Part shown: positions 2,345 to 63,408 of the stretch, piece after piece
How positions within the stretch are numbered: position 1 is the stretch's first letter
How the letters are laid out: the number at the start of each line of letters is the position of its first letter
NCBI RefSeq assembly: GCF_032854445.1
Contig: NC_088297.1
Span: 24,749,127 to 24,813,126, forward strand
Length of the DNA stretch: 64,000 nt
DNA from: Liolophura sinensis
Lineage: Eukaryota; Mollusca; Polyplacophora; Chitonida; Chitonidae
Direction of reading: 5' to 3'
The notes under the pieces: generated by a model
What the model saw: the letters and a program-made list of their open reading frames with translations, nothing else
The model's database searches: none
What the model was told of the DNA's origin: nothing
Translations under genes and position numbers: made by a program

Positions 2345-3607
2345 AGGGAGCGGGTCAGTGTACCGGTGCGGGGCAATGGCCCACGCCAATGCGGTCGCGG
2401 GGTTCAGTGTACCGGCCCGGCTCTATGGCCAACACCAATGTGCGGGGTTCAATGTACCGGCGCGGCGCAATGGCCCACACTAATGTGGTCGCGGGGCTCA
2501 GAGTACCAGCGCGGGACAATGGCCCACACCAATGGCGGTCGCGGGGGTCAGTGTACCAGCGCGGGGCAATGGCCCACACCAATGCGGTCGCAGGGGTCAG
2601 TGTACGAGCGCGTGGCTATGGCCCACATCAATGCGGTCGCACGGGTCAATGTACCAGCGCGGCGCAATGGCCAACACCAATGTGCGGGGTTCAATGTACC
2701 GCCGCGGCGCACTGGCCCACACCAATGCGGTCGCGGAGTTCAGTGTACTAGCGCGGCGCAAAATGGTCCACACCAATGCGGTCGCGGGGTTCAGTGTACC
2801 AGTTCGGCGTAATGGCTTACACCAATGCGGTCGCAGGGGTCAGGGTACTAGCGCGGCGCAATGGCCCACAGCAATACAGTTGCGGGGTTCAGTGTACCAG
2901 CGCGGCGCTATGGCCAACACCAATGCGGTCGCAGGGTTCAGTGTACCAGCGCGGCGCAATGGACCACACCAATGTGCGGGGTTCAATATACCGGCGCGGC
3001 TCTATGGCCAACACCAATGTGCGGGGTTCAATGTACCGGCGCGGCGCAATGGCCCACACTAATGTGGTCGCGGGGCTCAGTGTACCAGCGCGGGGCAATG
3101 GCCCGCACCAATGCGGTCGCAGGGGTCAGTGTACGAGCGCGTGGCTATGGCCCACATCAATGCGGTCGCACGGGTCAATGTACCAGCGCGGCGCAATGGC
3201 CAACATCAATGTGCGGGGTTCAATGTACCGCCGCGGAGCACTGGCCCACACCAATGCGGTCGCGGAGTTCAGTGTACTAGCGCGGCGCAAAATGGCCCAC
3301 ACCAATGCGGTCGCGGGGTTCAGTGTACCAGTTCGGCGTAATGGCTTACACCAATGCGGTCGCAGGGGTCAGGGTACTAGCGCGGCGCAATGGCCCACAG
3401 CAATACAGTTGCGGGGTTCAGTGTACCAGCGCGGCGCTATGGCCAACACCAATGCGGTCGCAGGGTTCAGTGTACCAGCGCGGCGCAATGGACCACACCA
3501 ATGTGCGGGGTTCAATATACCGGCGCGGCACAATAGCCCACACCAATGCGGTCGCAGGGTTCAGTGTACCAGCGCGGCGCAATGGCCCACAACAATGCAG
3601 TCGCTGT
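2345..3607 (+). repeat. 49-bp tandem array derived from the SINE-A tRNA-like head
   Basis: About 25 GC-rich units of roughly 49 bp (some about 45). The unit contains caccaatgcggtcgc followed by gggttca, and agcgcggcgcaatggccca. The same strings, in the same order, occur in the SINE-A head (agcgcagcg-taatgaccca, then caccaatgcggtcgc-tgtgagttca), with about 9 bp missing between them. The right end of the array runs without a break into the rest of a SINE-A body. A higher-order repeat of 530-580 bp is also visible: the variant agttcggcgtaatgg occurs at 2801 and 3330. Overlapping open frames here reflect CpG-rich low-stop sequence and are not genes. Confidence 0.88.
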
Positions 3608-11930: not shown

Positions 11931-12170
11931 TTTAGTCTCGGTGGACATATTAGTAATGCTCTTGTATCAGTCTGAAGCAGTGTTAGCGGTTTTAGCGAAG
12001 CTCTAGGCCACTTAAACTATAAAAATCTGCTGTTTACATCAGACCTAACACAGGTGCAAAACCAAAACACAAAACATTATGACGTTAAAATAGTGAAAAT
12101 ATATATATTTCCCTTTTAGATAAACGTAAAATACTAGTTCAGCTGATGGTGTATAACATAATAAAATACG
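11931..12170. other. Left flank of the 81-bp array
   Basis: AT-rich. Its right part (taacataataaaatacggct, then acagaatagagagtaaacc) runs into the first, diverged unit. It may be the left side of the repeat-bearing element, but I could align it only loosely to the left sides of the other two copies. Confidence 0.4.
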
Positions 12171-12171
12171 G

Positions 12172-13627
12172 CTACAGAATAGAGAGTAAACCAGAGCAGC
12201 GACGACAGTGTGGTAGGTGGCAAATGGTCACACATAACCGGTGAAACATGACTACAGCAAAGAGGATAAAACCAGAGCAGCGACGACAGTGTGATAGCTG
12301 GCAAATGGTCACACCTAACCGGTGAAACATGACTACAGCAAAGAGGATAAAACCAGAGCAGCGACGACAGTGTGATAGCTGGCAAATGGTCACACCTAAC
12401 CGGTGAAACATGGCTACAGCAAAGAGGATAAAACCAGAGCAGCGACGACAGTGTGATAGCTGGCAAATGGTCACACCTAACCGGTGAAACATGACTACAG
12501 CAAAGAGGATAAAACCAGAGCAGCGACGACAGTGTGATAGCTGGCAAATGGTCACACCTAACCGGTGAAACATGGCTACAACAAAGAGGATAAAACCAGA
12601 GCAGCGACGGGAGTGTGATAGCTGGCAAATGGTCACACCTAACCGGTGAAACATGGCTACAACAAAGAGAATAAAACCAGAGCAGCGACGACAGTGTGAT
12701 AGCTGGCAAATGGTCACACCTAACCGGTGAAACATGGCTACAACAAAGAGGATAAAACCAGAGCAGCGACGGGAGTGTGATAGCTGGCAAATGGTCACAC
12801 CTAACCGGTGAAACATGGCTACAACAAAGAGGATAAAACCAGAGCAGCGACGACAGTGTGATAGCTGGCAAATGGTCACACCTAACCGGTGAAACATGGC
12901 TACAGCAAAGAGGATAAAACCAGAGCAGCGACGACAGTGTGATAGCTGGCAAATGGTCACACCTAACCGGTGAAACATGGCCACAGCAAAGAGGATAAAA
13001 CCAGAGCAGCGACGGGAGTGTGATAGCTGGCAAATGGTCACACCTAACCGGTGAAACATGGCTACAGCAAAGAGGATAAAACCAGAGCAGCGACGACAGT
13101 GTGATAGCTGGCAAATGGTCACACCTAACCGGTGAAACATGGCTACAACAAAGAGGATAAAACCAGAGCAGCGACGGGAGTGTGATAGCTGGCAAATGGT
13201 CACACCTAACCGGTGAAACATGGCTACAACAAAGAGGATAAAACCAGAGCAGCGACGACAGTGTGATAGCTGGCAAATGGTCACACCTAACCGGTGAAAC
13301 ATGGCTACAGCAAAGAGGATAAAACCAGAGCAGCGACGACAGTGTGATAGCTGGCAAATGGTCACACCTAACCGGTGAAACATGGCCACAGCAAAGAGGA
13401 TAAAACCAGAGCAGCGACGACAGTGTGATAGCTGGCAAATGGTCACACCTAACCGGTGAAACATGGTTACAACAAAGAGGATAAAACCAGAGCAGCGACG
13501 GGAGTGTGATAGCTGGCAAATGGTCACACCTAACCGGTGAAACATGGCTACAACAAAGAGGATAAAACCAGAGCAGCGACGGGAGTGTGATAGCTGGCAA
13601 ATGGTCATACCTAACCGGTGAAACATG
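12172..13627. repeat. 81-bp tandem array, about 18 units, frame-preserving
   Basis: Near-identical 81-bp units containing agagcagcgacgacagtgtg, atagctggcaaatggtcaca, cctaaccggtgaaacatgg and caaagaggataaaacc. The first and last units are the most diverged. Variation is concentrated at a few sites (gacgaca or gacggga; tacagc or tacaac). Because 81 is 27 codons, two minus-strand frames of 488 and 484 codons stay open with a 27-residue repeat. I do not regard them as genes: two frames are open at once, there is no unique coding sequence at either end, and the variable sites show no codon-position bias that I can see. Confidence 0.9.
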
Positions 13628-13760
13628 GCCTCTTGTAAATTTAGGTCACTAAGGGTTTCATTCTAACTATTCATGTAAATGCTTAAAAGTCGAAAATTAC
13701 ACGCAGAATTAGGTAACAAATGCAATTTACAGGACGTAACTGGTGCTGTATTATCATCAC
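13628..13760 (+). mobile_element. Right flank of the 81-bp-array element
   Basis: cctcttgtaaatttaggtca, ttctaactattcatgtaa, tgcttaaaa, then cagaattaggtaacaaatg. This matches the right flank of the single-monomer copy at 11040-11215 and, more weakly, the sequence after the 58-bp array at 63570-63700. Confidence 0.65.
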
Positions 13761-15000: not shown

Positions 15001-16498
15001 TACACTTTTCGGTTCAGGGTTTTTCTGTTGTTAACCGTATACGTTCTGTTGCCCACAGTTTACATATAAGTGTAGGTCTTGTTTATAGTTTACGATCTGT
15101 TTAACTGTTGGTCTGTTGTCTACAGCTTACATTCTTTTTAAAAGGGGGCCTCCGTGGTTCAGTTGGTTAGCGGGCTAGCGCAGCGTTGAAGCCTCTGCCC
15201 AGTGTGGTCAATATGAGTTCAAGTCAAGCTAAGTGGGAAGGTCTCTTAGCGAATGGTCGTGGCTCTGCCCGGTTTCCTCCCACCATAATGCTGGCCGCCG
15301 TCGTAGAAGTGAAATATTCTTGAGTACGGAGCAAAACTCTAATCAAATAATAAATAAAATAAAATCTGTTTAAGTGTTTGTCTCTTGCCTACAATTTATC
15401 TTCTGTTTAAGTGTAGGTCTGTTGTCTACAGTTTATGATCTGCATAAGTGTTGGTCTCTTGTCTACAGTTTACGTTCTGTATAAGTGTTGGTCTTTTGTC
15501 CACAGTTTATGTTCTGTATAAGTGTTGGTCTCTTGTCTACAGTTTATGTTCTGTATAAGTGTTGATCTCTCGTCTACAGTTTATGTTCTGTATAAGCGTT
15601 GGTCTCTCGTCTACAGTTTGTGTTCTGTATAAGTGTTGGTCTTTTGTATACAGTTTATGTTCTGTATAAATGTTGGTCTCTCGTCTACAGTTTATATTCT
15701 GTATAAGTGTTGGTCTCTCGTCTACAGTTTACGCTCTGTATAAGTGTTGGTCTTTTGTCCACAGTTTATGTTCTGTATAAGTGTTGGTCTCTTGTCTACA
15801 GTTTATGTTCTGTATAAGTATTGGTCTCTTGTCTACAGTTTATGTTCTGTATAAATGTTGGTCTCTCGTCTACAGTTTATGTTCTGTAATAAGTGTTGGT
15901 CTCTCGTCTACAGTTTACGTTCTGTATAAGTGTTGGTCTCTCGTCTACAGTTTACGTTCTGTATAAGTGTTGGTCTTTTGTCTACAGTTTATGTTCTGTA
16001 TAAGTGTTGGTCTCTTGTCTACAGTTTATGTTCTGTATAAGTATTGGTCTCTTGTCTACAGTTTATGTTCTGTAAAAGTGTTGGTCTCTCGTCTACAGTT
16101 TACGTTCTGTATAAGTGTTGGTCTTTTGTCTACAGTTTATGTTCTGTATAAGTGTGGGTCTCTTTACAGTTTTACTCACTGATAACGTTCTGTATAAGTG
16201 TTGGTCTCTTGTCTACAGTTTATGTTCTGTATAAGTGTTGGTCTACAGTTTTATTCACTGATAACGTTCTGTATAAGTGTTGGTCTACAGTTTTACTCAC
16301 TGATAACGTTCTGTATAAGTGTTGGTCTACAGTTTTAATCACTGATAACGTTCTGTATAAGTGTTGGTCTACAGTTTTACTCACTGATAACGTTCTGTAT
16401 AAGTGTTGGTCTACAGTTTTACTCACTGATAACGTTCTGTATAAGTGTTGGTCTACAGTTTTACTCACTGATGACGTTCTGTATAAGTACAGGTCTTC
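15001..16498 (+). repeat. 37-bp tandem array changing to a 42-bp unit
   Basis: Degenerate at the left (15001-15145), interrupted by a SINE, regular from about 15366 to 16150 with a 37-bp unit (gttctgtataagtgttggtc, then tcttgtctacagtttat). From about 16165 to 16490 it becomes a 42-bp unit in which tcttgtctac is shortened and ttttactcactgataac is added. The 42-bp part is a multiple of three, so frames stay open on both strands. Neither part looks coding. Confidence 0.9.
15146..15365 (+). mobile_element. SINE family A inside the degenerate edge of the 37-bp array
   Basis: Head ggcctccgtggttcagttgg and ttagcgggctagcgcagcg, box-B-like gagttcaagtcaagc, body ctgcccggtttcctcccacc, tail gtacggagcaaaac and aataataaataaaataaaat. 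Tandem units lie on both sides, so the SINE inserted into an existing array. No clear target-site duplication. Confidence 0.9.
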
Positions 16499-23148: not shown

Positions 23149-23690
23149 TTAAACTGACCGGCCAGCGCGGGAGATGATTGACTGAAGGCGCGACATTTGC
23201 TTCTGCTCTACGTGATCTAATTTAGAATCATACTCCTGGATGCTAGCAAGGGATTTGTGTCCCGTGACTTGCATAATTTTATGTGGAGCGACGCCAGATT
23301 TTACAAGGGTTTGAACGGTTGTTTTTCGGACCGAGTGATTAGTTTTCCGGCCTTTCAGTCCAGCAGCCTCGGCTGCCCTCTTCATTAGCTGTCCCAAACG
23401 ATGCTCTCCCATTGGAGTGGAGTAATACCACACAGCTGCATCAGGTTTGAGATTTGTTTGCCACAACCATCTCTGCACATTTTTAACATCGCGATTTGTG
23501 CTCACAACTGTGTTTTTCTTCTGTTGCGAATCAATAAAGGCATTTACATCATTTACTACTTCATCTCTACTGGTACTTGGTGTTGCTTCTAAATGTTGCC
23601 CAGCTCTGGGTCATCAAATGGATCAAGTAGCATGCAAATTTCAGCGTCGGTGAGATCAAAAGGGTCAGAATCTGATTGATCGGCAGCCAT
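23149..23690 (-). pseudogene. Tyrosine recombinase (Crypton/DUF3504-like) relic with internal deletion
   Basis: The plausible original start is ATG at 23690, giving an acidic N-terminus (MAADQSDSDPFDLTDAE). The first frame hits TAG near 23595; a neighbouring frame then continues (STSRDEVVNDVNAFIDSQ...) and remains open to the stop at 23149. The C-terminal part carries tyrosine-recombinase landmarks: TNHSVRKTTVQTL (HxxR box), VTGHKSLASIQEYD (GH box, then the candidate nucleophile Tyr). The N-terminal segment is joined abruptly, within the RWLWQTNLKPDA region, to the late catalytic part. The central region with the first catalytic Arg and the Lys is missing, so this is an internally deleted and probably inactive copy of a Crypton-type element or a derived host gene. 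Family membership is inferred from motif order. Confidence 0.8.
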
Positions 23691-24615: not shown

Positions 24616-24890
24616 GTGATCATAGAAAACTTTAATATCGACCTATTCAAAACCGGCACCCACCGCCCATCTAAACAGTTTCTAGAAACTATCAAATCCT
24701 ATTATTATTTCCCCCAAATTGCAAAACCGACCAGAATCAAATCTAATAGTGCCACCTTAATTGGCAATATTTTTACCAACTTTCCCGAAACCAACATCTT
24801 GTCAGGAATTCTCCCAGATGTAACCGATCATTTTCCCGTTTTCCAAATTGACCGTCAAAATATCCCCACCTCACTGAGGGGGTGCTATAT
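24616..24890 (+). pseudogene. LINE endonuclease C-terminal fragment
   Basis: The frame begins at ENFNIDLFK, matching the (G)DFNIDLL motif of apurinic-type LINE endonucleases, with the first Asp replaced by Asn. It continues through SYYYFPQIAKPTRI and NSATLIGNIFTN (the family pattern is ITKPTRITxxSATLIDNIFTN; here Asp to Gly) to VTDHFPVFQID, the terminal S/T-D-H catalytic motif. Two catalytic-type acidic positions are changed, so it should be inactive. The sequence coding for VTDHFPVF is where array 1 begins. Confidence 0.85.
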
Positions 24891-26577
24891 TATGTATCGC
24901 ATGTAACCGATCATTTTCACGTTTTCCATATTGACCACCAAAATATCCTTATCCCACGGGGAGGGGGGGGGGGGGCGAGATTATGTATCTCATGTAAACG
25001 ATCATTTACCTGTTTTCCGTATTGACCACCAAAATATCCTTATCCCACGGGGAGGGGGGGGGGGGCGAGATTATGTATCTCATGTAAACGATCATTTACC
25101 CGTTTTCCGTATTGACCACCAAAATATCCTTATCCCACGGGGAGGGGGGGCGAGATTATGTATCTCATGTAAACGGTCATTTACCCGTTTTCCGTATTGA
25201 CCACCAAAATATCCTTATCCCACGGGGAGGGGGGGGCGAGATTATGTATCTCATGTAAACGGTCATTTACCCGTTTTCCGTATTGACCACCAAAATATCC
25301 TTATCCCACGGGGAGGGGGGGCGAGATTATGTATCTCATGTTAACGATCATTTACCCGTTTTCCGTATTGACCACCAAAATATCCTTATCCCACGGGGAG
25401 GGGGGGGCGAGATTATGTATCTCATGTAAACGATCATTTAACCGTTTTCCGTATTGACCACCAAAATATCCTTATCCCACGGGGAGGGGGGGCGAGATTA
25501 TGTATCTCATGTAAACGGTCATTTACCCGTTTTCCGTATTGACCACCAAAATATCCTTATCCCACGGGGAGGGGGGGGGCGAGATTATGTATCTCATGTT
25601 AACGATCATTTACCCGTTTTCCGTATTGACCACCAAAATATCCTTATCCCACGGGGAGGGGGGGGGGGGCGAGATTATGTATCTCATGTAAACGATCATT
25701 TACCCGTTTTCCGTATTGACCACCAAATTATCCCCACCACTTGGAGGGAAAGCGAGATTATGTATCCCATGTAACCGATCATTTTTCCGTTTCCGAACTG
25801 ACCACCAAAACATCCCAACCCAACGGAGGGGGCTGCGATATTATGTACCACATGTTACCGATCCCTTTTCCATTTTCCGTATTGACCACCAAAATATCCC
25901 CACCCCACGGAGGGGTGGGATATTATGTACCACATATTACCGATCCCTTTTCCATTTTCCGTTTTTCCGTATTGACCCACGGAGGGGTGGGATATTATGT
26001 ACCACATATTACCGATCCCTTTTCCATTTTCTGTATTGACCACCAAAATATCCCCACCCAATGGAGGGGTGCAATATTATCTATCACATGTTACCGATCA
26101 CTTTTCCATTTTCCGTATTGACCACCAAAATATCCCCACCCCACGGAGGGGTGCGATATTACCTATCACATGTTACCGATCACTTTTCCATTTTCCGTAT
26201 TGACCACCAAAATATCCCCACCCCACGGAGGGGTGCGATATTATCTATCACATGTTACCAATCACTTTTCCATTTTCCGTATTGACCACCAAAATATCCC
26301 ACCCCACGGAGGGGTGCGATATTATGTATCGCATGTAACCGATCATTTTTCCGTCTGCCATACTGACCACCAAAATAACCCCACCCCACGGAGGGGGTGC
26401 GATAGTATGTATCGCATGTAACCGATCATTTTTCCGTCTGCCATACTGACCACCAAAATAATCCCACCCCACGGAGGTGGTGCGATATTATGTATCGCAC
26501 GTGACCGATCATTTCCGCTTTTCCGTATTGACCACTAAAATATCCCTATCCCACGGAGGTGGTGCGATATTATGTAT
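24818..26577 (+). repeat. 84-90-bp tandem array grown from the LINE endonuclease TDHFPVF codons
   Basis: About 21 units. The LINE sequence gtaaccgatcattttcccgt followed by tttccaaattgaccg is the first unit. Later units repeat gtaa(a/c)cgatcattt(a/t)cccg, ttttccgtattgaccacc and aaaatatcc. Two sub-blocks differ: 24900-25730 has ccttatcccacgggga and a G-run of 7 to 13 before cgagattatgtatctcatg; 25730-26577 has ccccaccccacggagggg and atattatgtaccacatg. The changing G-run length changes the reading frame from unit to unit. Confidence 0.9.
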
Positions 26578-27539: not shown

Positions 27540-27720
27540 TATAATTTTTTTGGCGTATATCTTAATGACAAATTAAATTGAACTAGACAAATTAAAGAAA
27601 TTTCAAAAACAATTTCGAGAAACATCAGCTTTTAACAAATTAAAGAAAGTCTCCATATGAGAATCATGCATATCTTGTATTATTCCTTGATATATACTTA
27701 CTGGTCAATATGAAAACCCT
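27540..27720 (+). pseudogene. LINE late reverse-transcriptase fragment
   Basis: Reads FFGVYLNDKLN, stop, TRQIKEISKTISRNIS, then after frame damage MRIMHILYYSLIYTYWSI. The pattern FLG..(I/L)D..L.W...I..I..KISRN...(LNK)..., then ILYYSLI.PYL is highly characteristic of the RT thumb of CR1/L2/Rex-like LINEs. The second part (MHILYYSLIYTY) is the founding unit of array 2. Confidence 0.85.
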
Positions 27721-29425
27721 GTATATCTTGTACTATTCCTTGATATATCCTTACTGGTGAATATAAACACCCTGCACGTCTTGTATTATTCCTTGATATA
27801 TCCTTACTGGTAAATGTTAAAACCCTGCATATCTTGTATTATTCCTTAATATATCCTTACTGGTAAATGCTAAAACCCTGCAAATCTTGTAATATTCCTT
27901 GATATATCTTTACTGGTGAATGTTAAAACCCTGCATCTTTTGTATTATTCTTTGATATGTCCTTACTGGTGAATGTTAAAACCCTGCATCTCCTATATTA
28001 TTCCTTCATAGGTCCTTCCTGGTGAATGTTCAAACCCTGCATATCTTGAATTATTCCTTGATATATCCTTACTGGTGAATGTTAAAATACTTCATATCTT
28101 GTATTATTCCTTGATATATCCTCACTGGTAAATGTTAAAACCCTGCATACCTTGTATTATTCTTTGATACATCCTTACTGGTAAATGTTAAAACCCTGCA
28201 TTTCTTGTATTATTCTTTGATATGTCTTTACTGGTGAATGTTAAAACCTTGCATATCTTGTATTATTCCTTGATATATCCTTACTGGTAAATGCTAAAAC
28301 CCTTCATATCTTGTATTATTCCTTGATATATCCTTACTGGTGAATGTTAAAACCTTGCAATTATTGTATTATTTCTTGATATGTCCTTACTGGTGAATAT
28401 GAAAACCTTGCATTTCTTGTATTATTCTTTGATATATCCTCACTGGTGAATGTTAAAACCCTGCATATCTTGTATTATTCCTTGGTATATCCTTACTGGT
28501 GAGTGTTAGAACACTGCTTTTCTTGTATTATTCCTTAATATGTCCTTACTGGTGAATATGAAACCCCTGTGTATCTTGTATTATTCCTTGATATATCCTT
28601 ACTGGTGAATGTTAAAACCCTGCATATATTTTATTAATCCTTAATATATATTCTTACTAATGAATTTTAAAACCCTGCATATTTTGTATTATTCCCTGAT
28701 ATATCCTTACTGGTGAATGTTAAAACCCTGCAAATCTTGTATTATTCCTTGATATATCCTTACTGGTAAATGTTAAAACCCTTTACATCTTGCATTATTC
28801 CTTGATGTATCCATACTGGTGAATGTTAAAACCCTGCATCTCTTGTATTATTCCTTAATATCTCCTTACTGCTAAATAAGAAAACCATGCATATCTTGTA
28901 TAATTCCTTGATATATCATTACCGATGAATATGAAAACCCTGCATATTTTGTATTATTCCTTGATATATCCTTACTGGTGAATGTCAAAACACTGCATTT
29001 CTTGTATTTTTTCTTCATATATCCTTACTGGTGAATGTTAAAACACTGCATTTCTTGTATTATTCCTTAATTTTTCCTTGCTGCTGATTATAAGAACCCT
29101 TCATCTACTGTATTATTTTTTAATATATTTTTACTAATGAGTATGAAAACCCTGCATATTTTGTATTATTCCTTGATATATTCTTACTGGTGAATATGAA
29201 AACCTTGCATTTCTTGTATTATTCCTTGATATATTCTTACCGGTGAATATGAAAACCTTGCATTTCTTGCATTATTCCCTGATATAACCTTACTGGTGAA
29301 TATGAAAACCCTGCATATCTTGTATTACCCCTTGATATATCTTTACTGGTGAATGTTAAAACCCTGCATATCTTGTATTATTCCTTGATATATTCCTACT
29401 GATGAATGTTAAAACCATGCAAATG
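27664..29425 (+). repeat. 53-bp tandem array grown from the LINE RT LYYSLIYPY codons
   Basis: About 33 units of gcatatcttgtattattcct, then tgatatatccttactggtga and atgttaaaaccct, period 53 bp. Unit divergence is higher than in the 81-bp array (variants tatgaaaacc, cttgcatttcttg). 53 is not a multiple of three, so no long frame exists. The first unit is continuous with the LINE RT fragment. Confidence 0.92.
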
Positions 29426-40056: not shown

Positions 40057-41212
40057 AATGTTTGTAGTCATCGACGTTCCATACCATATACAAAGTGTTG
40101 CAATTACATATACAAGCCTGACCGACACCGAAATGAAATGTGTGTAAAACTGTTAGATTTATTTTTTTTTCTTCTGTGAGAAGTTTATATACTTGTAAAT
40201 ATAACAGATTCGTGCGGTTTTATTATGCGTATATCGGAAATGAATGTGTGCAAAACAGGATGTGATACATCACCAAGTAAGCTTAAATACATTTAAATAT
40301 GCCTCAAATCTAAGCTTTTATTCAAGCATTATGTGAAATATTTGCAAAATGGTCAGCCAGATGCAACTGTTTTAGCCAGCAGATTTAAAGTTCCGAAATA
40401 TAACAATTATATCTAGTTTCACTATACAGATATGACAAATATTATCAAAACCTTCCTTTTCATGACCAGAACTTCGCGCACTAGGTTAAATGCTATGAAA
40501 TAAAAGACATGTATTCAATTTAATCCAAAAGGTTTAGTAAATATTTGCAAAGGAATACAGTTTTATTACATTTGCTTTGCTACATTTTCAAAACAAAAAC
40601 ACGTACATCTAAAACATTTGGTCTTAATAACAGTTGCAAATGCATGAGTATCATGGACTAATATAAACAACCACTTTCATTCACTGCAAATATTTCGAGA
40701 TTTTGTGGAAATATTTAGGGTGATATTGGTTTCTTGGTAATTATTGATATTCAGTGTCAAGTGGCTATCATTGCATGGTAAACATTTGCACATGAAATGG
40801 TTACATTTACATATCTGCGTAGCACATATAAAATACAATGTAATATATTTGCTTTGACATACTACTATTGTTAAAACTTTGTGAAGTTGCAGCCTTCACA
40901 ATATTGGATGAATTAGTGTGAAATAATATGAATATAACTAAAATTCATTGTAAATGTTTGCTAAATCTGTATGAAACACTGTCCTTTAACACAACTGAAC
41001 ATAGCATATAATATATTCAGTATTCGTTTACCTGTACTCCCCATGTTTAAGTTTGACAAACAAAGCACATTGTGGCAAATAAATCTTCAAGATATGCAAT
41101 ATTTGCACCACAATTAGTAAATTTTATTAAATTTACGTTTTCTTGTAGTATAGGAAATCACCCGCCGGTCAGCAGCAACGCTGTTTTCCTAAAAAAATTA
41201 TCAACAATAAAC
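40057..41212. other. AT-rich stretch with recurring atatttgca
   Basis: The word atatttgca (or aaacatttgca) recurs near 40337, 40540, 40787 and 41098 with irregular spacing of about 100-300 bp. It may be a decayed tandem repeat. No gene seen. Confidence 0.4.
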
Positions 41213-43790
41213 ATGGCGTCGACGACAGGTAGAAAACGTTTGGTGAGTCACAATTTATCGAAATTATCGAATACCGGGCTAGTGTAGTTCCCCAAAAATG
41301 CTTAGAAAGCCAACGAGAATGCATCAAACATGTTAAAAGAGTACTTACGGAAAAAAAGGATAGGACCAGGAGTTTTCCAACTTTTCTTCTGAACAACTAT
41401 GTGAAGTGCTGTGTCACCTCTATGTGGATGCCAGGAAGGGTGATGGACAGCGATATGATACCAGGAAAGGTGACGGGCAGTGGTATGATGTCAGGAAGGG
41501 TGATGGACAGCGGTATGATGTTAGGAAGAGTGATGGACAGCGGTATGATGTCAGAAAGGGTGATGGGCAGCGGTATGATGTTAGGAAGGGTTATGGACAG
41601 CGGTATGATGTCAGGAAGGGTGATGGGCAGAGGTATGATGTTAGGAAGAGTGATGGGCAGCGGTATGATGTTAGGAAGAGTGATGGGCAGCGGTATGATG
41701 TCAGGAAGGGTGATGGGCAGCGGTATGATGCCAGGAAGGGTTATGGACAGCGGTATGATGTCAGGAAGGGTTATGGACAGCGGTATGATGTGAGGAAGGG
41801 TGATGGGCAGCGGTATGATGTCAGGAAGGGTGATGGGCAGCGGTATGATGTCAGGAAGGGTGATGCCAGAGAAAGGGTGATGGGCAGCGGTATGATGCCA
41901 GGAAGGGTTATGGACAGCGGTATGATGTCAGGAAGGGTGATGGACAGCGGTATGATGTTAGGAAGAGTGATGGACAGCGGTATGATGTCACGAAGGGTGA
42001 TGGACAGTGGTATGATGTCAGGAGGGTGATGGGCAGCGGTATGATGTCAGGAAGGGTTATGGACAGCGGTATGATGTCAGGAAGGGTGATGGACAGCGGT
42101 ATGATGTCAGGAGGGTGATGGGCAGCGGTATGATGTCAGGAAGGGTGATGGACAGCGGTATGATGTTAGGAAGAGTGATGGGCAGCGGTATGATGCCAGA
42201 GAAAGAGTGATGGGCAGCGGTATGATGTGAGGAAGGGTTATGGACAGCGGTATGATGTCAGGAAGGGTGATAGGCAGCGGTATGATGCCAGAGAAAGGGT
42301 GATGGGCAGCGGTATGATGTCAGGAAGGGTGATGGACAGCGGTATGATGTTAGGAAGAGTGATGGGCAGCGGTATGATGTTAGGAAGAATGATGGGCAGC
42401 GGTATGATGTTAGGAAGAGTGATGGGCAGCGGTATGATGTCAGGAAGGGTGATGCCAGAGAAAGGGTGATGGGCAGCAGTATGATGTCAGGAGGGTGATG
42501 GGCAGCGGTATGATGTCAGGAAGGGTGATGGACAGCGGTATGATGTCAGGAAGGGTGATGGACAGCGGTATGATGTCAGGAGGGTGATGGACAGCGGTAT
42601 GATGTCAGGAAGGGTGATGGACAGCGGTATGATGTCAGGAAGGGTGATGGACAGCGGTATGATGTTAGGAAGAGTGATGGGCAGCGGTATGATGCCAGAG
42701 AAAGAGTGATGGGCAGCGGTATGATGTGAGGAAGGGTTATGGACAGCGGTATGATGTCAGGAAGGGTGATGGGCAGAGGTATGATGTTAGGAAGAGTGAT
42801 GGGCAGCGCTATGATGCCAGAGAAAGGGTGATGGGCAGCGGTATGATGTCAGGAAGGGTGATGGACAGCGGTATGATGTTAGGAAGAGTGATGGGCAGCG
42901 GTATGATGTCAGGAAGAATGATGGGCAGAGGTATGATGCCAGGAAGGGTGATGGGCAGCGGTATGATGTCAGGAAGGATGATGGGCAGCGGTATAAAGTG
43001 TCCACAATCGAACATTTTTGTCATTCCTTAAACATGTATTGAAACTTGCCACCACACTTAAAACTGTCTGATATAGTAAAGGACAGGGAGTTCCACGAAG
43101 CCAATAAGTGTTTTAAAATCGTGAAGTCCATGGGAATGGGCGCCAAAGCTAACCACCTTCGCGTCACAGATGATGACAGATATAAACTGTATTCATCTTT
43201 GCACATGTGTCCAAACACACTGAGTGGATTGGCAAAATAAAAGTCAATTTGATATCCGGCTGTATTTTTGCTGTCGAGGCTGTGAAAATACGCATACCAT
43301 GACGAAAAACACTTTCACTGTTGACAACGTTGTCATTATGGAAATTTCTCCGCATTTATGCCAGAAATTCCAGACTCTGAATTTGGCCCTGTGAAATCCT
43401 TTGTGAAATACACGCAGAAGGTGCATCCAAGCTGTGAGCGCCTTTGGCAGTATCTCCAAGCTAGTGTCCTTCACAATAAGGAAGTGTGGTTTGAAAACCG
43501 GTCAAAGGGAATAAATCCCATGGGCAAATTCATGAGTGTCCTAAGTACAAAATGTGGTCTATCCCAGTTGTACACCAACCACAGCATTCGATCAACCGGG
43601 ATCACACACTCTCTGGTCAGGCCTATTTTTCCTCAGCACAGATTATGGCAATAAATGGTCATAAATCTGTACAGTCCTGTCCGTGTATCAACAGGTATTC
43701 CCAGGCGAGAAGTTGGAAATGGGTGGAGCTGTTTTATAGAACTGTGTTGGTTTGTCGTCTGACTCTTACATCGTCGTTGCTTAACAACGT
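41213..43790 (+). pseudogene. KIAA1958/Crypton-like tyrosine recombinase relic, split by a 30-bp array of its own codons
   Basis: Candidate start ATG at 41213 (MASTTGRKRLVSHNL). After stops and frame changes: NMLKEYLRKKRI, then EFSNFSSEQLCEVLCHLYVD followed by ARKGDGQRYD. The 30-bp array then repeats RKGDGQRYDV. Immediately after it the protein resumes: GQRYKVSTIEHFCHSLNMY, stop, PPHLKLSDIVKDREFHEANK. Catalytic part, in three frames: FDIRLYFCCRGCENTHTM (first Arg box), TFTVDNV, GPVKSFVKYTQKVHPSCERL, YTNHSIRSTGI (HxxR), then AQIMAINGHKSVQS (GH) and NRYSQA (candidate Tyr). This order is that of the DUF3504/KIAA1958/ZMYM-associated recombinases derived from Crypton transposons, which cut and join DNA through a tyrosine. 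At least three frameshifts and several stops make it non-functional as it stands. Confidence 0.82.
41425..42990 (+). repeat. 30-bp (10-codon) tandem array inside the recombinase frame
   Basis: About 50 units of gatgggcagcggtatgatgt followed by caggaagggt. Regular variants are ttaggaaga and a 32-bp-type unit with ccagagaaagggt; shortened units (caggagggt) break the frame at about 42020, 42110 and later. In the recombinase frame the unit reads RKGDGQRYDV, and this frame is open for 207 codons from 41406. Both array edges fall inside the codons for GDGQRY of the parent gene. Confidence 0.93.
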
Positions 43791-44639
43791 ACACCGGAAC
43801 ATGTTCAGAACTCCATTGTAAATGAACAGGTCAGACCTGTTTTTCCCGCAGGTAGGTCATCTAAATGCTAACCACAGCCGGCATATGCTTCTGGCCTGAT
43901 AGGGCAGCTATTCTGTGACTTTGAATGCCTTTCTAGTCAGCCGCCCTGTCACACAGTACACAATGATTCCCGACTAGTACAGTCAACTACCTAAAACCGA
44001 GGCCCAATTTTTCACAACTGTTCTACTGGAATTGTTAATATCGTGTTCAAGCAATGAACTGAAACTTGTAAACTGTGTCCCGTGCCTAAAAAAGTGCCTA
44101 AAAACAGACTTAGAACAGGAAACCGCTCAAACTTTGCTTAGTACATTGTTTTGCAGTAAAGAATCAGTGTAAAAAAATTAAACTCCCGAGTAGCTATGAT
44201 TGAAGTTTTGACTTAAGTATTAAGACATTTGATAGTTATGGACCTTAGGGGTCCGTATCACAAAGTGCACGTAACCTCAAATTTTCGAAATGAACAGATA
44301 CATTTTTACACGTTGTCAGGTTTCCGAGCAGGGCGGGAGCTCTTGTCATCGCGCTAGCCGTGTAGTCAGCCTCAGCCTGAAGTTCCAGTATTATTTCAAG
44401 AAATATTATCCGTTTCTTCGGGCTTCGTGAAAATATTGATCATCTCGAAGAAATATCAGGCCGTATACCGACGCAACACGCTAATATAACTTCTAGACTT
44501 AATCAGAATTCTGTAATTTTTCTACCTTCTCAGTTAGTCCCATGTCGGGTAAGCTTGTTTCGTCGTCAGAAGCCCTGATCATATCATAAATGGGAAAGGG
44601 AAAGGGAAACGTCTGGTGCCAGTATACCGTGAATGATTG
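43791..44639. other. Unassigned stretch
   Basis: At 44248-44275 aggggtccgtatcacaaagt gcacgtaacc resembles the edge of the small palindromic family seen at 29921. No gene. Confidence 0.5.
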
Positions 44640-45955
44640 AATGGGTGAGGCGAAACGTCTGATGTCAGTATAGTGTGAATGGGTGTGACGCAACGCCTGG
44701 TGCCAGTATACCGTGAATGGTGGAGCGAAACATCTGGTGCCAGTATACCGTGAATGGTAGAGCGAAACGTCTGGTTCCAGTATACCGTGAATGGGTGGAG
44801 CGAAACGTCTGGTGCCAGTATACCGTGAATGGGTGAGGCGAAACGTCTGGTTCCAGTATACCGTGAATGGTGTGACGCAACGCCTGGTGCCAGTATACCG
44901 TGAATGGTGGAGCGAAACGCCTGGTGCCAGTATACCGTGAATGGGTGAGGCGAAACGTCTGGTGCCAGTATACCGTGAATGGTTGAATGGGTGAGGCGAA
45001 ACGTCTGATGTCAGTATAGTGTGAATGGGTGTGACGCAACGTCTGGTGCCAGTATACCGTGAATGGTGGAGCGAAACGCCTGGTGCCAGTATACCGTGAA
45101 TGGGTGTGACGCAACGCCTGGTGCCAGTATACCGTGAATGGTGGAGCGAAACGTCTGGTGCCAGTATACCGTGAATGGGTGAGGCGAAACGTCTGGTGCC
45201 AGTATACCGTGAATGGTTGAATGGGTGAGGCGAAACGTCTGATGTCAGTATAGTGTGAATGGGTGTGACGCAACGTCAGGTGCCAGTATACCGTGAGTGG
45301 TGGAGCGAAACGTTTGGTGCCAGTATACCGTGAATGGTGTGGAGCAACGTCAGGTGCCAGTATACCGTGAATGGTGGAGCGAAACGCCTGGTGCCAGTAT
45401 ACCGTGAATGGGTGAGGCGAAAGTCTGGTGCCAGTATACAGTGAATGGTTGAATGGGTGAGGCGAAACGTCTGATGTCAGTATAGTGTGAATGGGTGTGA
45501 CGCAACGTCTGGTGCCAGTATACCGTGAGTGGTGGAGCGAAACGTCTGGTGCCAGTATACCGTGAATGGGTGAGGCGAAACGTCTGGTGCCAGTATACCG
45601 TGAATGGTTGAATGGGTGTGACGCAACGTCTGGTGCCAGTATGCCGTGAGAGGTGGAGCGAAACGTCTGGTGCCAGTATACCGTGAATGGTGTGGCGCAA
45701 CGTCTGGTGCCAGTATACCGTGAATGGTGGAGCGAAACGTCTGGTGCCAGTATACCGTGAATGGTGTGGCGCAACGTCAGGTGCCAGTATACTGTGAATG
45801 GGTGGAGCGAAACGTCTGGTGTCAGTATACCATGAAGGGTAAGGCACAACGTCTGGTGTCAGTATATCGTGAATGGGTGGAGTGAAAGTCTGGTGTCAGT
45901 ATACCGTGAATGGGTGAGGCTAAAGGTCGAGCATCAGCAGGCCTATACCGTGAAT
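44610..45955 (-). repeat. 38-bp tandem array with about 233-bp higher-order repeat
   Basis: About 35 units of ggtgccagtataccgtgaat followed by a variable block: gggtgaggcgaaacgtct, ggtggagcgaaacgtct or ggtgtgacgcaacgtct. The marker unit gatgtcagtatagtgtgaat occurs at 44661, 45007, 45241 and 45473; the last three are 234 and 232 bp apart. Minus-strand frames of 394 and 165 codons (HTHSRYTGTRRF-like) are repeat by-products: two frames are open in parallel and there is no unique coding end. Confidence 0.9.
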
Positions 45956-46334
45956 GTGTGAGACGAAACCTCCAACAAACAGCGTTGAGCTACTCCGGGC
46001 ACTCCGCCTGCGTAAGTATCGAGGTACACATCTTTCTGATTATATAGATCTGTTCTGTGTTAGAGCGCTGTGTTTTTCTGACGTGTTGCAGGAAACATCC
46101 CCACAATATCCAAGGGTTCCTGATCAGGGTCCCATGGAGAACGCATCGGTGTGTTCAGTGTTTTGTGAAATGTTTCTGTTACAGTTGATGTGAAATCACT
46201 GACACATCCGCACGAGCGTGGACACAGACTGTGAGCCATCTCTGTGTACTGTCCAACAACAATGACGCCATGTCCATAATAAGTTGCACGCACAGAGCCG
46301 AAATATGCATCAGTTAACGCTTTTCCCTGTAAAC
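45956..46334. other. Unassigned stretch
   Basis: Between the 38-bp array and the gag relic. On the minus strand it could hold what remains downstream of gag, but I recognise no protease or RT motif. Confidence 0.4.
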
Positions 46335-46835
46335 ATTAAACGGTCTTGCCTGTCTTCTGTTTTGACAGGCAAACTGAAAAAGTAATGTCCCTTTTCACGG
46401 CAATAGTCACAAGCTGCATGACGTACTGGACACTTTTTACTCTCATGGTATTGGTGTCCACAAAAATAGTAACCATCACGTGGCTTATCTTTTTAAGATT
46501 GTTGTGTTGTCTGATAGCGCGCAGATTTCTTCTGTTTTGATGACAATGCCTTAGTTTGCTGTTTCTTAGGGCGAAACTGTTGGGAATCAAAACTGTCAGC
46601 TATAACGGCTAATCCTTGGGCTGGCGCATTACTGACCTGAAGTCCTTTGCAAATGTCAACTGCTTTCTGCAGAGTAAAATCACTTCCCCTGATCTGATCA
46701 CTAGCGACACTCACAATAATTCGGTCAGTTACGTCACTAATTCGCAGCTTTTAGATGTATCCCTTAGGTGTGTACAGAAACTATCGAACGGTTCTCCAGT
46801 CCGCGGAGGTCTGGTGTTAGGCACATTTCTATCAT
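46335..46835 (-). pseudogene. Gypsy-type LTR-retrotransposon gag relic with two zinc knuckles
   Basis: In gag order on the minus strand: YDRNVPNTR, GEPFDSFCTHLRD (a capsid-type GE.FD.F...LR motif), stop and frame change, DVTDRIIVSVASDQIRGSD, FTLQKAVDICKG, then a Lys/Gln-rich linker and two CCHC-type knuckles. The first knuckle has Tyr where the first Cys should be (YYFCGHQYHESKKC). The second has Leu in place of its last Cys (CDYCREKGHYFFSL). Gag packages element RNA; with stops, a frameshift and both knuckles damaged, this copy is dead. No LTR, protease or polymerase region was found beside it. Confidence 0.78.
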
Positions 46836-53184: not shown

Positions 53185-54189
53185 ATAGTTCTGAGGCGGT
53201 TGTTTACGGCTCAAACCTGACGATCCCCCCTATCCCTCAACCCTCTATTTATGCCGTCAGCACGGACGTCAACAAAATTAGAGCGCCAGCGCCAAGTCCG
53301 AGACGATTTTTCCCCCAGCGTTTGTGTTTCTTATTTGCTCGTCGTCTGGTGGTCATTTTTGTGAACTGCTCAACGCAACTTTACAAAGCGACATTTCGCT
53401 CACCCGTCGCCCAATGCTTCGTCCTGCTGTGCAGACGCCAACGAAATCTGATCCGCAAAATTCAAACCACCCATTGGTCCGTTTTAGCCTGCAAAAGCTC
53501 AACACCCAACTCTACAAGCCGGACACTTGGACTTTCACCAGCGCAAACCTCTACTACCTTCGTGCGGGAACATACGTGCCAACCATTGCTCCGTTTTGGC
53601 GGATAACTTGCTTCGCTCAATAACATCGCCGCAATCCTACACGTTTGCAATTTAGTTTACTACTTTTGTGGATCGTACATGTAAACAAAAATTGAAAGCG
53701 AATTACAAGTCTGGTAAACCAAATACAATCTTCATTTCTATCGACCATGTATTATAAAGTATTCGTAATTCGCAAAGTTACAAGGTAGGCTGCATAATTA
53801 CAACACAGTGCCATCTTTGACACTTGAATTTCGCTGAATGTCTCCAGTGTCTACACTTCAAGGGGCGGTAACCCAAAGTCGATCATCGGCCATGTTTCTA
53901 AATATAATGACTGGAGTGACTGGTCCACGGATAAAACTGAACATTCGACTGTCCAGTCAAAGCTAGACACATGCCAATAGACCTCTGGAAGTCTTAACAT
54001 TATGTAGATGACGTTTAAAATAGCAGCACAAATGTATCTTTTAAGCAGAAATTACCTCCGTTTGCCAGATTCTCACAAAATTCCTGTTCACTAAGAGAAC
54101 AGCTTCATGTGCACGGGGATATTAATGTCTCGCTTCTGTGTCGTTGGTTCGATTTTCCACCAAGTTCCATGGATATCGATTAGCCTCTT
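53185..54189. other. Unassigned stretch, partly CpG-rich
   Basis: 53230-53640 is GC- and CpG-richer than its surroundings and has two overlapping plus frames (94 and 99 codons from 53322) with no domain I know. It could be an exon, a promoter-type region or transposon remnant. From 53650 the composition returns to AT-rich. Confidence 0.35.
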
Positions 54190-55998
54190 TGACATGATAT
54201 AGCAAACAAACACACTGGCTAACGAATATTTTGACTTGATATGGCAAGCAAGCAAACTGGGTAACACACTTTTTGACATGATATGGCAAACAAACACAGC
54301 GATTAACGTACATTTTGACGTAATACAGCAAACAAACACAATGGCTAACGAATATTTTCACATGATATGACAAACAAACAAACCGGCTAACGCACATTTT
54401 CACATGACATGGCAAACAAACAAACCGGCTAACGCACATTTTCACATGATATGACAAGCAAACAAACCGGCTAACGCACATTTTGACATGATATGGCAAA
54501 CAAACAAACCGGCTAACGCACATTTTGACATGATATGGCAAACAAACACACCAGCTAACCAACATTTTGACATGATATGGCAAACACACACAATGGCAAA
54601 CGTACATTTTGACATGATATGGCAAACACACACACTGGCTAACGTACATTTTGACATGATATGGCAAACACACACACTGGCTAACGTACATTTTGACATG
54701 ATGTGACAAACACACACACTGGCTAACGTACATTTTGACATGATATGGCAAACAAATCACTGGCTAACGTACATTTTGACATGATATGGCAAACACACAC
54801 ACTGGCTAACGTACATTTTGACATGATATGGCAAACACACACACTGGCTAACGTACATTTTGACATGATATGGCAAACAAACACACTGGCTAACGTACAT
54901 TTTGACATGATATGGCAAACACACACACTGGCTAACGTACATTTTGACATGATATGGCAAACACACACACTGGCTAACGTACATTTTGACATAATATGTT
55001 AAACACACACATGGCTAACGTACATTTTGACATGATATGGCAAACACACACAATGGCTAACGTACATTTTGATATCATATGGCAAACAAACAAACCGGCT
55101 AGGGTACATTTTCACATGATATGGCAAACAAATACACAGGCTAATGTACATTTTCACATAATATGGCAAACAAACACACTGGCTAACGAATATTTTAACA
55201 CGACATGGCAACCAAGCAAACTGGGTAACACACTTTTTGACATGATATGGAAAACAAACAAAGCGATTAACGTACATTTTGACCTCATATGGCAAACAAA
55301 CACACAGGCTAACGAATATTTTGACTTGATATGGCAACCAAGCAAACTGGGTAACACACTTTTTGACATGATGTGGCAAACAAACACACAAGCTAACGTG
55401 CATTTTCACATGATATAGCAAACAAACAAACCGGCTAACGCACATTTTCACATGATATGGCAAACAAACAAAAAGGCTAACGTACATTTTGACATGATAT
55501 GGCAAACGAAGAAACCGGCGAATGTGCAGTTTTATGTGATATGGCAAACAAACAAACGGGTTGACGTACATTTTCACATAATATGGCAAACAAACACACT
55601 GGCTAACGTACATTATGACATGATATTGCAAACAACACACTGGCTAACGCACATTTTCACATGATATGGCAAACAAACAAACCGGCGAATGTGCAGTTTT
55701 ACGTGATATGGCATACAAACAAACCGGCTAACGTACTTTTTGACATGATATGGCAAACAAACACACTGGCTAACGTACATTTTGACATGATATGGCAAAC
55801 ACACAAGCCGGCTAACCTACATTTTAACATGATGTGTCAAACAAACAAACTGTTTAACGTACATTTTGACATATAATGTGGCAAACAAATACACTGGCTA
55901 ACGTACATTTTGACATCATATGACAAACAAACATACCGGCTAACGTACATTTTGACATGATATGGCAAACAAATACACTGACTAAAGTACATTTTGAC
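54190..55998. repeat. 42-bp tandem array, about 43 units
   Basis: Unit atatggcaaacaaacacact, ggctaacgtacattttgaca, tg, period 42 bp. Period equals 14 codons and few stops occur, so up to six frames stay open (for example 212 codons on minus, 140 on plus); parallel openness argues against coding. Blocks with variant units (caagcaaactgggtaacacac, then agcgattaacgtacattttg) recur near 54246, 55211 and 55328, showing block duplication. The central part (54600-55000) is the most homogeneous. Confidence 0.93.
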
Positions 55999-56230
55999 AG
56001 GGATGCGAAACGTATCTCACATAAGTGAATGTTAATAGCTCATCAAAAATTTGTTGACGTATGCTGTAAAATAACAAACAGTATATTTTTGCAGTAAAAT
56101 ATGAATGAATTGTGAGCTATAATACTGTTTCCTGTATGTATACCGCTTTCTTTTGAATTTAGATCTACAGTCAGTTATGCAGTCACGGGATCAAAGAAAG
56201 TGTTGCGTATAAAACAACCTCAGCGTGATT

Positions 56231-60081: not shown

Positions 60082-61330
60082 ATCCCTTTAATGAACAGTT
60101 GCAGTCAAAGGGTAAAGGCATACCTATATCTGCATTTAATCTAGATAATATCAACCGACAGCGAGTTGGAAATTTGATTAGGATGTTGTTCCTAGAAAAT
60201 TTCTGTATAATAATATATGTTTGGCTATATATTTGTGGTGATAGTTTGTAAATGAACAGAAGTCTGTAGTCTCAGTTAACTTTCCCACCTTTGTCAACGT
60301 TGGATATATATTTATACAAGGGCATAAGAAACCATTTATTTTGTAAATGACAAATATGAAGTTGGTATATATGAGAGGCTGAAATAAAACCTTAGTTATC
60401 AATGAATCTAAATTAAGATATAATGGTTTGCTTTTTTGCTGTGTATTGCGTGAGACAGATGCCGGTGAAATGGATGCACACGCTGTTTGATGAACGAGGT
60501 TTTAACAGATTTCACCAAAATTGTATTATTTTGTTGCACCGCACAGTTTTCATCCCCATACACATGAAGTACACACCAACTTCATATGTATAGCGAATGT
60601 GGGCTCGGGCGATTCTAATTTGAACACAATAGGGGAGACAACCTTTCGACTAATTAGAATGTTTTCTTTAAATATCCGAACTGTACTTTTCAATGGAATT
60701 TGACATGATCTTGTTCAATGATCTCAAGGCCCTCTTCGAGAACTGTGTGTGATTTGTTTAGGTTTTCATTGAAACAGACGATAGTTACATGTAACCTTAA
60801 CCTTTCCAACCTTGTTTTGGACGATTCCAACGTCTCATCAAAGGTAGCTAGTCTTGGCAATATGCCAACATGCATAAAAGAACATGTCAGGTGCATGGTG
60901 TCTGTACGCCGCTTTCTGGGTTACAAAACTCAACAACTGTGCAAATGTAAGTGTTAGAGAGCTAAATTAACAAAAACTACAGATCTGTGCGACCATTTGT
61001 ACTTGTGGATATACCGGATAAGTCTGTAAACTAAGGTATGTTGTGCGTGTACCAATTTAAGTTGACTTGTGCTTGTTAGAGTGCTTTAAGTGGTTTATGC
61101 GACCTGCGTGACGTTGAAAGAGACCAAAACAATATTCTTGTATGATGTCCCCGAAATCTTCTTCCGCGTATATACATACTTCTCCATAAATAAAAAAATC
61201 AATAAAAGAACGGGAGTTTCGTACTAGCTCAAAGGGTTAAACTTCTAGTTAATGTACAAGGTTTGATCTTTAATTTCTTATGGGAGTAGCCAGTGGATAA
61301 TTCCATAAGCTTCTTCTGTGTGATGCGGCA
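60082..61330. other. Unassigned stretch, left flank of the 58-bp array
   Basis: Opposed frames at 60690-60957 (79 codons plus, 68 codons minus) overlap and have no domain I can name. The last 100 bp may be the left arm of the repeat-bearing element. Confidence 0.4.
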
Positions 61331-63408
61331 TAACTCACTGACAGCTCAGAGAGTAAAGTCACAGCCGTGACAACAGTGTGATACAGCATAACTGAACGAC
61401 ACCTCGGAGAGTAAAGTCACAGCAGTGACAACAGTCTGATACAGCATAACTGACCGACACCTCGGAGAGTAAAGTCACAGCAGTGACGACAGTCTGATAC
61501 AGCATAACTGACCGACACCGCGGAGGGTAAAGTCAGAGCAGTGACGACAGTCTGATACAGTATAACTGACCGACACCTCGGAGAGTAAAGTCACAGCAGT
61601 GACAACAGTCTGATACAGCATAACTGACCGACACCTCGGAGAGTAAAGTCACAGCAGTGACGACAGTGCGATACAGCATAACTGACCGACACCTCGGACA
61701 GTAAAGTCAGAGCTGTGACAACAGTGTGATACAGCATAACTGACTGACACCTCGGAGAGTAAAGTCAGAGCAGTGACGACAGTCTGATACAGTATAACTG
61801 ACTGACACCTCGGAGAGTAAAGTCACAGCAGTGACAACAGTGTGATACAGCATAACTGACCGACACCTCGGAGAGTAAAGTCACAGCAGTGACAACAGTG
61901 GCAGTGACAACAGTGTGATACAGCATGACTGACCGACACCTCGGAGAGTAAAGTCAGAGCTGTGACAACAGTGTGATACAGCATAACTGACTGACACCTC
62001 GGAGATTAAAGTCAGAGCAGTGACGACAGTCTGATACAGTATAACTGACAGACACCTCGGAGAGTAAAGTCAGAGCAGTGACAACAGTGTGATACAGCAT
62101 AAATGACCGACACCGCGGAGAGTAAAGTCACAGCAGTGACAACAGTGTGATACAGCATAACTGACCGACACCTCGGAGAGTAAAGTCACAGCAGTGACAA
62201 CAGTGGCAGTGACAACAGTGTGATACAGCATAACTGACCGACACCTCGGAGAGTAAAGTCAGAGCAGTGACGACAGTGTGATGCAGCATAACTGACTGAC
62301 ACCTCGGAGATTAAAGTCAGAGCAGTGACGACAGACTGATACAGCATAACTGACCGACACCGCGGAGGGTAAAGTCAGAGCAGTGACGACAGTCTGATAC
62401 AGTATAACTGACTGACACCTCGGAGAGTAAAGTCACAGCAGTGACAACAGTCTGATACAGCATAACTGACTGACACCTCGGAGAGTAAAGTCACAGCAGT
62501 GACGACAGTGCGATACAGTATAACTGACTGACACCTCGGACAGTAAAGTCAGAGCTGTGACAACAGTGTGATACAGCATAACTGACTGACACCTCGGAGA
62601 GTAAAGTCAGAGCAGTGACAACAGTGTGATACAGCATAAATGACCGACACCTCGGAGAGTAAAGTCACAGCAGTGACAACAGTGTGATACAGCATAACTG
62701 ACCGACACCGCGGAGAGTAAAGTCACAGCAGTGACAACAGTGGCAGTGACAACAGTGTGATACAGCATAACTGACCGACACCTCGGAGAGTAAAGTCAGA
62801 GCAGTGACGACAGTGTGATGCAGCATAACTGACTGACACCTCGGAGAGTAAAGTCAGAGCAGTGACGACAGACTGATACAGTATAACTGACCGACACCTC
62901 GGAGAGTAAGGTCAGAGCTGTGACAACAGTGTGATACAGCATAACTGACTGACACCTCGGAGATTAAAGTCAGAGCAGTGACGACAGACTGATACAGTAT
63001 AACTGACCGACACATCGGAGAGTAAAGTTACAGCAGTGACGACAGTGTGATACAGCATAACTGACCGACACATCGGAGATTAAAGTCAGAGCAGTGACGA
63101 CAGACTGATACAGTATAACTGACCGACACATCGGAGAGTAAAGTTACAGCAGTGACGACAGTGTGATACAGCATAACTGACCGACACCTCGGAGATTAAA
63201 GTCAGAGCAGTGACGACAGTGTGATACAGCATAACTGACCGACACCTCGGAGAGTAAGGTCAGAGCAGTGACGACAGTGTGATACAGCATAACTGACTGA
63301 CACCTCGGAGAGTAAGGTCAGAGCAGTGACGACAGTGTGATACAGCATAACTGACCGACACTTCAGAGATTAGTCAGAGCAGTGACGAAAGTGTGATAAA
63401 TGACAACG
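61331..63408. repeat. 58-bp tandem array, about 36 units
   Basis: Unit agagtaaagtcacagcagtg, acaacagtgtgatacagcat, aactgaccgacacctcgg, period 58 bp. The core cagagcagtgacgacagtgt matches the 81-bp units' cagagcagcgacgacagtgt. Three units carry an extra 16-bp internal duplication (ggcagtgacaacagtg) at about 61901, 62206 and 62742, showing block copying of larger segments. Confidence 0.92.

Follow-up and report, generated by a model that had tools for sequence, protein, structure and literature searches.

A minisatellite lies inside the broken remains of a tyrosine recombinase gene in the DNA of Liolophura sinensis analysed here, a window of 64,000 bp. It occupies 41427-42994 on the plus strand, and the recombinase can be followed in pieces on the same strand to its left and right, with stops in both flanks and several changes of frame. 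The two flanks were aligned apart by tblastn, in one-pair searches, to P0001, a 361-aa tyrosine recombinase of Mytilus edulis, the left flank being taken as 41130-41453 (which holds the native unit of the array) and the right flank as 42992-43830. On the left, a piece at 41294-41359 with one internal stop corresponds to residues 4-25 of P0001 (E 1e-4), and a piece at 41364-41453, in a different frame, corresponds to residues 27-56 (57% identity over 30 residues, E 1.3e-10). On the right, 42992-43606 corresponds to residues 57-264 (37% identity over 209 columns, E 6e-39), carries five in-frame stops and contains the H-x-x-R of NHSIR, and a C-terminal remnant with GHKSVQS at 43606-43695, again in another frame, corresponds to residues 264-293 (E 9e-7). 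Four further pieces of the flank alignment have E values of 3 or more and are attributed to chance. By eye, active-site-like motifs (NHSIR, GHKS, DIRLYF and a YQQ) are legible, spread over three frames.

Ahead of these pieces stands a possible N-terminal remnant of the recombinase (41213-41290, plus strand), read from the sequence as MASTTGRKR... and stopped by a TAG; its product may resemble the N-termini of recombinases. The preliminary description had drawn the gene from 41213 to 43790, a fair outline of the remnant, except that no homologue aligned to its first codons (41213-41290).

None of the broken recombinase pieces of the window reaches a Pfam cut-off (nearest QRICH1, E 0.89), and of three homologues scanned, P0036 scores above the cut-offs for both DUF3504 and Phage_integrase and P0001 and P0026 score below them. 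Against PDB sequences, the piece at 43043-43237 matches 7uek_A (E 2.5e-4). Rfam gave no match on the 64,000-bp window at gathering scores. The homology to P0001 is clear. The host gene may be filed as Crypton/DUF3504-like, and the names KIAA1958-like and DUF3504 agree with the labels and Pfam scores of the homologues.

Arrays are a prominent part of the surroundings. Under settings common to both samples (period of at least 10, at least 3 copies, at least 300 bp), they cover 15,490 of the 64,000 bp of the window, about a quarter, and six further stretches of 10 kb, few in number and taken at round coordinates, together hold 6,156 bp of array in 60,000 bp. Three of the six are free of arrays, while one is covered to 39%. 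The window is rich in minisatellites and the genome appears to be so too, so that an array inside a transposon copy is to be expected now and then. Other large minisatellites of the window include those at 2355-3604, 12170-13629, 15365-16488, 24818-26577, 27667-29421, 44638-45916, 54188-55999 and 61318-63398, and between the recombinase remnant and the one at 44638-45916 lie only some 0.9 kb.

Three further features were recorded on the minus strand. A second tyrosine recombinase fragment lies at 23149-23610, with a match to Pfam Phage_integrase (E 3.8e-9) and 35% identity to P0001. A 404-aa open frame at 30834-32048 matches galactose-3-O-sulfotransferase (E 4.1e-46) and is probably a host gene. 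At 46310-46750, short frames show by eye a cysteine/histidine pattern suggestive of a retrotransposon gag zinc knuckle; no Pfam match was obtained for them.

Structure and edges of the array

As determined by TRF and unit-by-unit parsing, the array consists of 51 units of about 30 bp, the native first unit included. Set head to tail and within the range of about 10-100 bp, these units make 41427-42994 a minisatellite in the usual sense, with sharp edges at both coordinates. The native, or seed, stretch lies at 41427-41456 on the plus strand, encodes D A R K G D G Q R Y and matches the single unit of the homologues. The unit of the array reads DVRKGDGQRY in the parent frame, and the 30-bp consensus, when anchored on TAT, reads YDVRKGDGQR in that frame. 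The preliminary description had located the insertion at RKGDGQRYD; its frame and flanks were right, although the array begins two residues earlier, at DARKGDGQRY. Likewise, its unit of exactly 30 bp holds for 40 of the 50 units after the first, whereas the other ten measure 29 bp (4 units), 32 bp (4 units) or 47 bp (2 units). The 40 units of 30 bp comprise 19 distinct sequences.

The unit was found at this one place only. When the window was scanned with a degenerate form of the unit, allowing up to 3 mismatches, 40 matches appeared, every one of them within 41427-42994, against a chance expectation, from 100 shuffles, of 0.00 matches on average. In the genome as a whole, a DNA search that skips common words returned 9 matches to the unit, all within this same array and hence at one locus.

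Homologous proteins and other copies in the genome

The parentage of the unit can be read from homologous proteins. A protein search with the right-hand remnant alone, with X placed at stops, returned 10 proteins, the best of which was P0001 (E 1.1e-37). A second search, for which the first 160 residues of P0001 served as query, returned 30 proteins, all by its design between 0.55 and 1.75 times the query length. The named sources of homologues include the bivalves Mytilus, Ostrea, Pinctada, Mizuhopecten and Ylistrum. In P0001 the motif RKGDGERYK is present once, and in the alignment set of 29 proteins (P0001 with P0011-P0038, P0003 being left out) all 28 that cover the site have a single unit and read straight through it.

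The flanks tell the same story. Far from deriving from non-adjacent parts of the protein or from unrelated proteins, they adjoin, the left ending at residue 56 of P0001 and the right starting at residue 57 with nothing missing between them. Together with the single unit in homologues and in other copies, this bears out the earlier placement of the array inside one DUF3504/KIAA1958-like recombinase frame and points to a local expansion of native codons. The alternative that the gene received a minisatellite of unrelated origin can be dismissed with near certainty: what the unit encodes is a conserved motif of this very gene, of which homologues have one copy, and no point in favour of such an insertion was found.

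Within the Liolophura genome (609 Mb) the recombinase is multi-copy and dispersed, with 116 matches to P0001, many of which cover only the C-terminal half and may belong to different recombinases; a single gene may also account for several matches. Thirty loci were fetched, and the two that belong to the window itself (L001 and L007) were dropped from the comparison of the site. No array was found in 21 distinct stretches that span the site in 20 other loci, some of them shorter than one unit; each such stretch is one tblastn piece, and the count alone is biased toward array-free copies. Since a long array would split a tblastn piece, TRF was run on 33 loci as an independent check, and outside L001 and L007 it found no array of at least 100 bp at the site, with several loci having arrays elsewhere. 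The idea that the array is a shared feature of the recombinase family was accordingly rejected, on the single unit in homologues and the array-free copies examined. As in other single-locus minisatellites derived from transposons, the unit is present once in related copies and the array was found at one locus.

The nearest relatives by DNA in the same genome are L002 (78% over the 3' part) and L003 (84% over 134 bp), neither of which reaches the site. Because the copies that do reach it are distant, the seed DNA before duplication has to be read from the array's own first unit.

Elsewhere in the family, arrays of other kinds were observed. Two copies, at L010:1177-1485 and L017:960-1398 (both on the minus strand), which are 91% alike over 277 bp, have a recombinase domain followed by a 78-bp (26-codon) array. 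This array is open in the frame of the domain, and between domain and array stand two stops in L010 and three in L017, so that both copies are broken. A third copy has a 47-bp array of 4.8 copies at L020:1275-1503, starting near the C-terminal part of the recombinase and with a unit that is not a multiple of three. The recombinase family has thus been hit by arrays at other places too.

Reading frame and timing of growth

The first 14 units, comprising the native one and 13 others, lie in the parent frame, as the preliminary description had said of the unit generally; the array as a whole is off frame, its first and last anchors being 1538 bp apart (2 modulo 3). Counted over the 51 anchors, the same-frame runs before each change are 14, 5, 3, 3, 3, 5, 1, 3, 4, 4 and 6. 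Frame-breaking units, those of 29, 32 and 47 bp, account for 10 of the 51 and recur along the array; all ten fall within 41844-42841 (plus strand), from a 47-bp unit at 41844 to a 32-bp unit at 42810. In the parent frame, no ATG-started ORF that crosses the array exceeds 100 residues; a different frame has one of 123 residues.

Codon statistics looked suggestive of coding constraint when taken as raw synonymous fractions, with 8 of 16 distinct unit variants synonymous in the parent frame, compared with 3 and 2 in the remaining frames. When base type was matched by permutation, this excess fell short of significance (mean 6.26, p = 0.18). In addition, a word-limited search of about 5.8 billion proteins found none bearing the repeat, and none shared three words; the search reaches only proteins 0.55 to 1.75 times as long as the 165-residue query, so that very long in-frame arrays would be missed. 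There is no sign of a present use of the repeat as protein, and we infer no present function for the array.

The recurrence of frame-breaking units along the array implies that part of its growth came after the loss of the frame. A finer indication is given by the order of unit types. The order CHPQ, which includes a 32-bp unit, is present twice, and SCH, which also includes a 32-bp unit, is present twice as well, at nearly equal spacing; later growth therefore seems to have copied runs of units, and since both repeated orders contain a 32-bp unit, at least that growth followed the frame break. The 91% identity of neighbouring stretches of about 450 bp had also been considered as a mark of block copying, and this indicator was set aside when another register gave 91% as well.

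We lean toward growth mostly in the dead gene. In its full form, this reading has the gene die first and the array grow wholly in the pseudogene as neutral DNA, which we regard as somewhat probable. Both flanks are decayed, frame-breaking units recur, the background is rich in minisatellites, and another copy (L020) carries an array of 47-bp units, a length not divisible by three. Nothing dates the first duplications, however, and the in-frame 5' block of 14 units finds no explanation in this sequence of events, though it is compatible with chance.

That block counts, conversely, in favour of the view that the array first grew in frame in a live recombinase, whose protein would then have carried it as a long charged loop until the gene was lost. 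The raw synonymous counts point the same way, as does the 78-bp array of the two other copies, open in the frame of the domain although stops intervene. The predicted structure also has a bearing, as the array site would fall in a loop between two helices in the N-terminal part of the recombinase (non-helical residues 49-61 of P0001, between predicted helices 35-48 and 62-74). The model, built from 25 sequences, is of low overall confidence (mean pLDDT 61.7, pTM 0.40; block confidence 86, 63 and 88 over residues 41-70), and the predicted position would only make early tolerance possible. Against growth in a live gene stand the synonymous count, which does not exceed its matched permutation, the recurrent breaks of frame in 10 of the 51 units, the lack of a repeat-bearing protein in the length-limited search, and the confinement of the one longer ORF to another frame. 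On balance we consider such an origin rather unlikely. The preliminary description had proposed that expansion preceded loss of the gene: growth within the recombinase frame is supported, whereas the order of events is neither supported nor excluded.

A broader version of growth while alive would hold that the family tolerates in-frame minisatellites in its exposed parts, namely, with a 10-codon unit, the N-terminal loop of the present copy and, with a 26-codon unit, the C-terminal tail of two others, and that the transposon itself carries and disperses coding minisatellites. This strikes us as quite improbable.

Birth of the array and known systems

Taken together, the locus is very probably the product of a local expansion of the native codons DARKGDGQRY in one decayed Crypton/DUF3504-like copy, a pseudogene that has given rise to a transposon-born minisatellite at a single locus. 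Its most direct reading would be a 30-bp tandem duplication of these codons that needed no homology where the copies join. The first duplication may have been a slip of replication or repair that relied on homology little or not at all, and the array would later have grown through slippage or unequal exchange among its units, in part by copying runs in which frame-breaking units were already present. The only repeats that bound the seed are TAT/TAT, 33 bp apart, and in a variant of this course the array would have begun with a slip of 33 bp from one of these TAT (Tyr) codons to the other (41421 and 41454), followed by the loss of one codon to leave 30 bp. TAT is indeed found at both places, and homologues likewise have 11 codons from Y to Y; but no 33-bp unit is left except the native one, and a direct 30-bp duplication takes fewer steps, which makes the variant a doubtful one.

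Minisatellites born from transposons are known in humans, where, according to Ahmed and Liang (2012, PMC3389668), 7,276 of 31,472 minisatellites are given as transposon-derived and 5,747 of 5,932 clusters as single-locus. As in those cases, a stretch of transposon has here been duplicated locally into a tandem array at one locus. The human cases, as described there, are largely Alu, ERV and L1, with few units in the Alu cases, whereas the Liolophura array consists of tyrosine-recombinase coding sequence in 51 units. The model of first duplication cited in the same source could apply, but the seed here is bounded by only a 3-bp repeat, and the fit is weak.

Coding sequence of transposons has also been recorded as a source of repeats. 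The review PMC9659126 relates satellites and microsatellites to the ORFs of transposons, namely CR1 ORF2, L1 ORF2, gag in rye and Aegilops, and Tnp2 of CACTA. The repeat stems from transposon coding sequence in those systems as it does here; they belong, in that account, to other element classes. The present array has a 10-codon unit and was found at one locus.

With regard to the host gene, Kojima and Jurka (2011, PMC3212892) derive DUF3504 from the recombinase of Crypton transposons and report Cryptons from the mollusc Lottia. The gene in Liolophura would be of the same kind as the CryptonA/DUF3504 genes treated there, its homologues matching DUF3504 and phage integrase; unlike that family as there portrayed, the copy is broken, and in the copies examined the array is no family feature. 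No array in a Crypton-like gene was found among the matches listed for literature on Crypton, tandem repeats and minisatellites, judged by the openings of their abstracts, and the word Crypton is absent from the available portion of a paper on bivalve transposons (PMC10294476).

Transposon-born minisatellites are already known, and the present case is a neat and ordinary one that leaves the known picture of how such arrays arise unchanged. What makes it a clean case is that the parent, the edges and the reading frame of the minisatellite can all be named from homologues. It can thus serve, for an animal whose genome appears to be rich in minisatellites, as a worked example of how a repeat is born within the coding sequence of a transposon.
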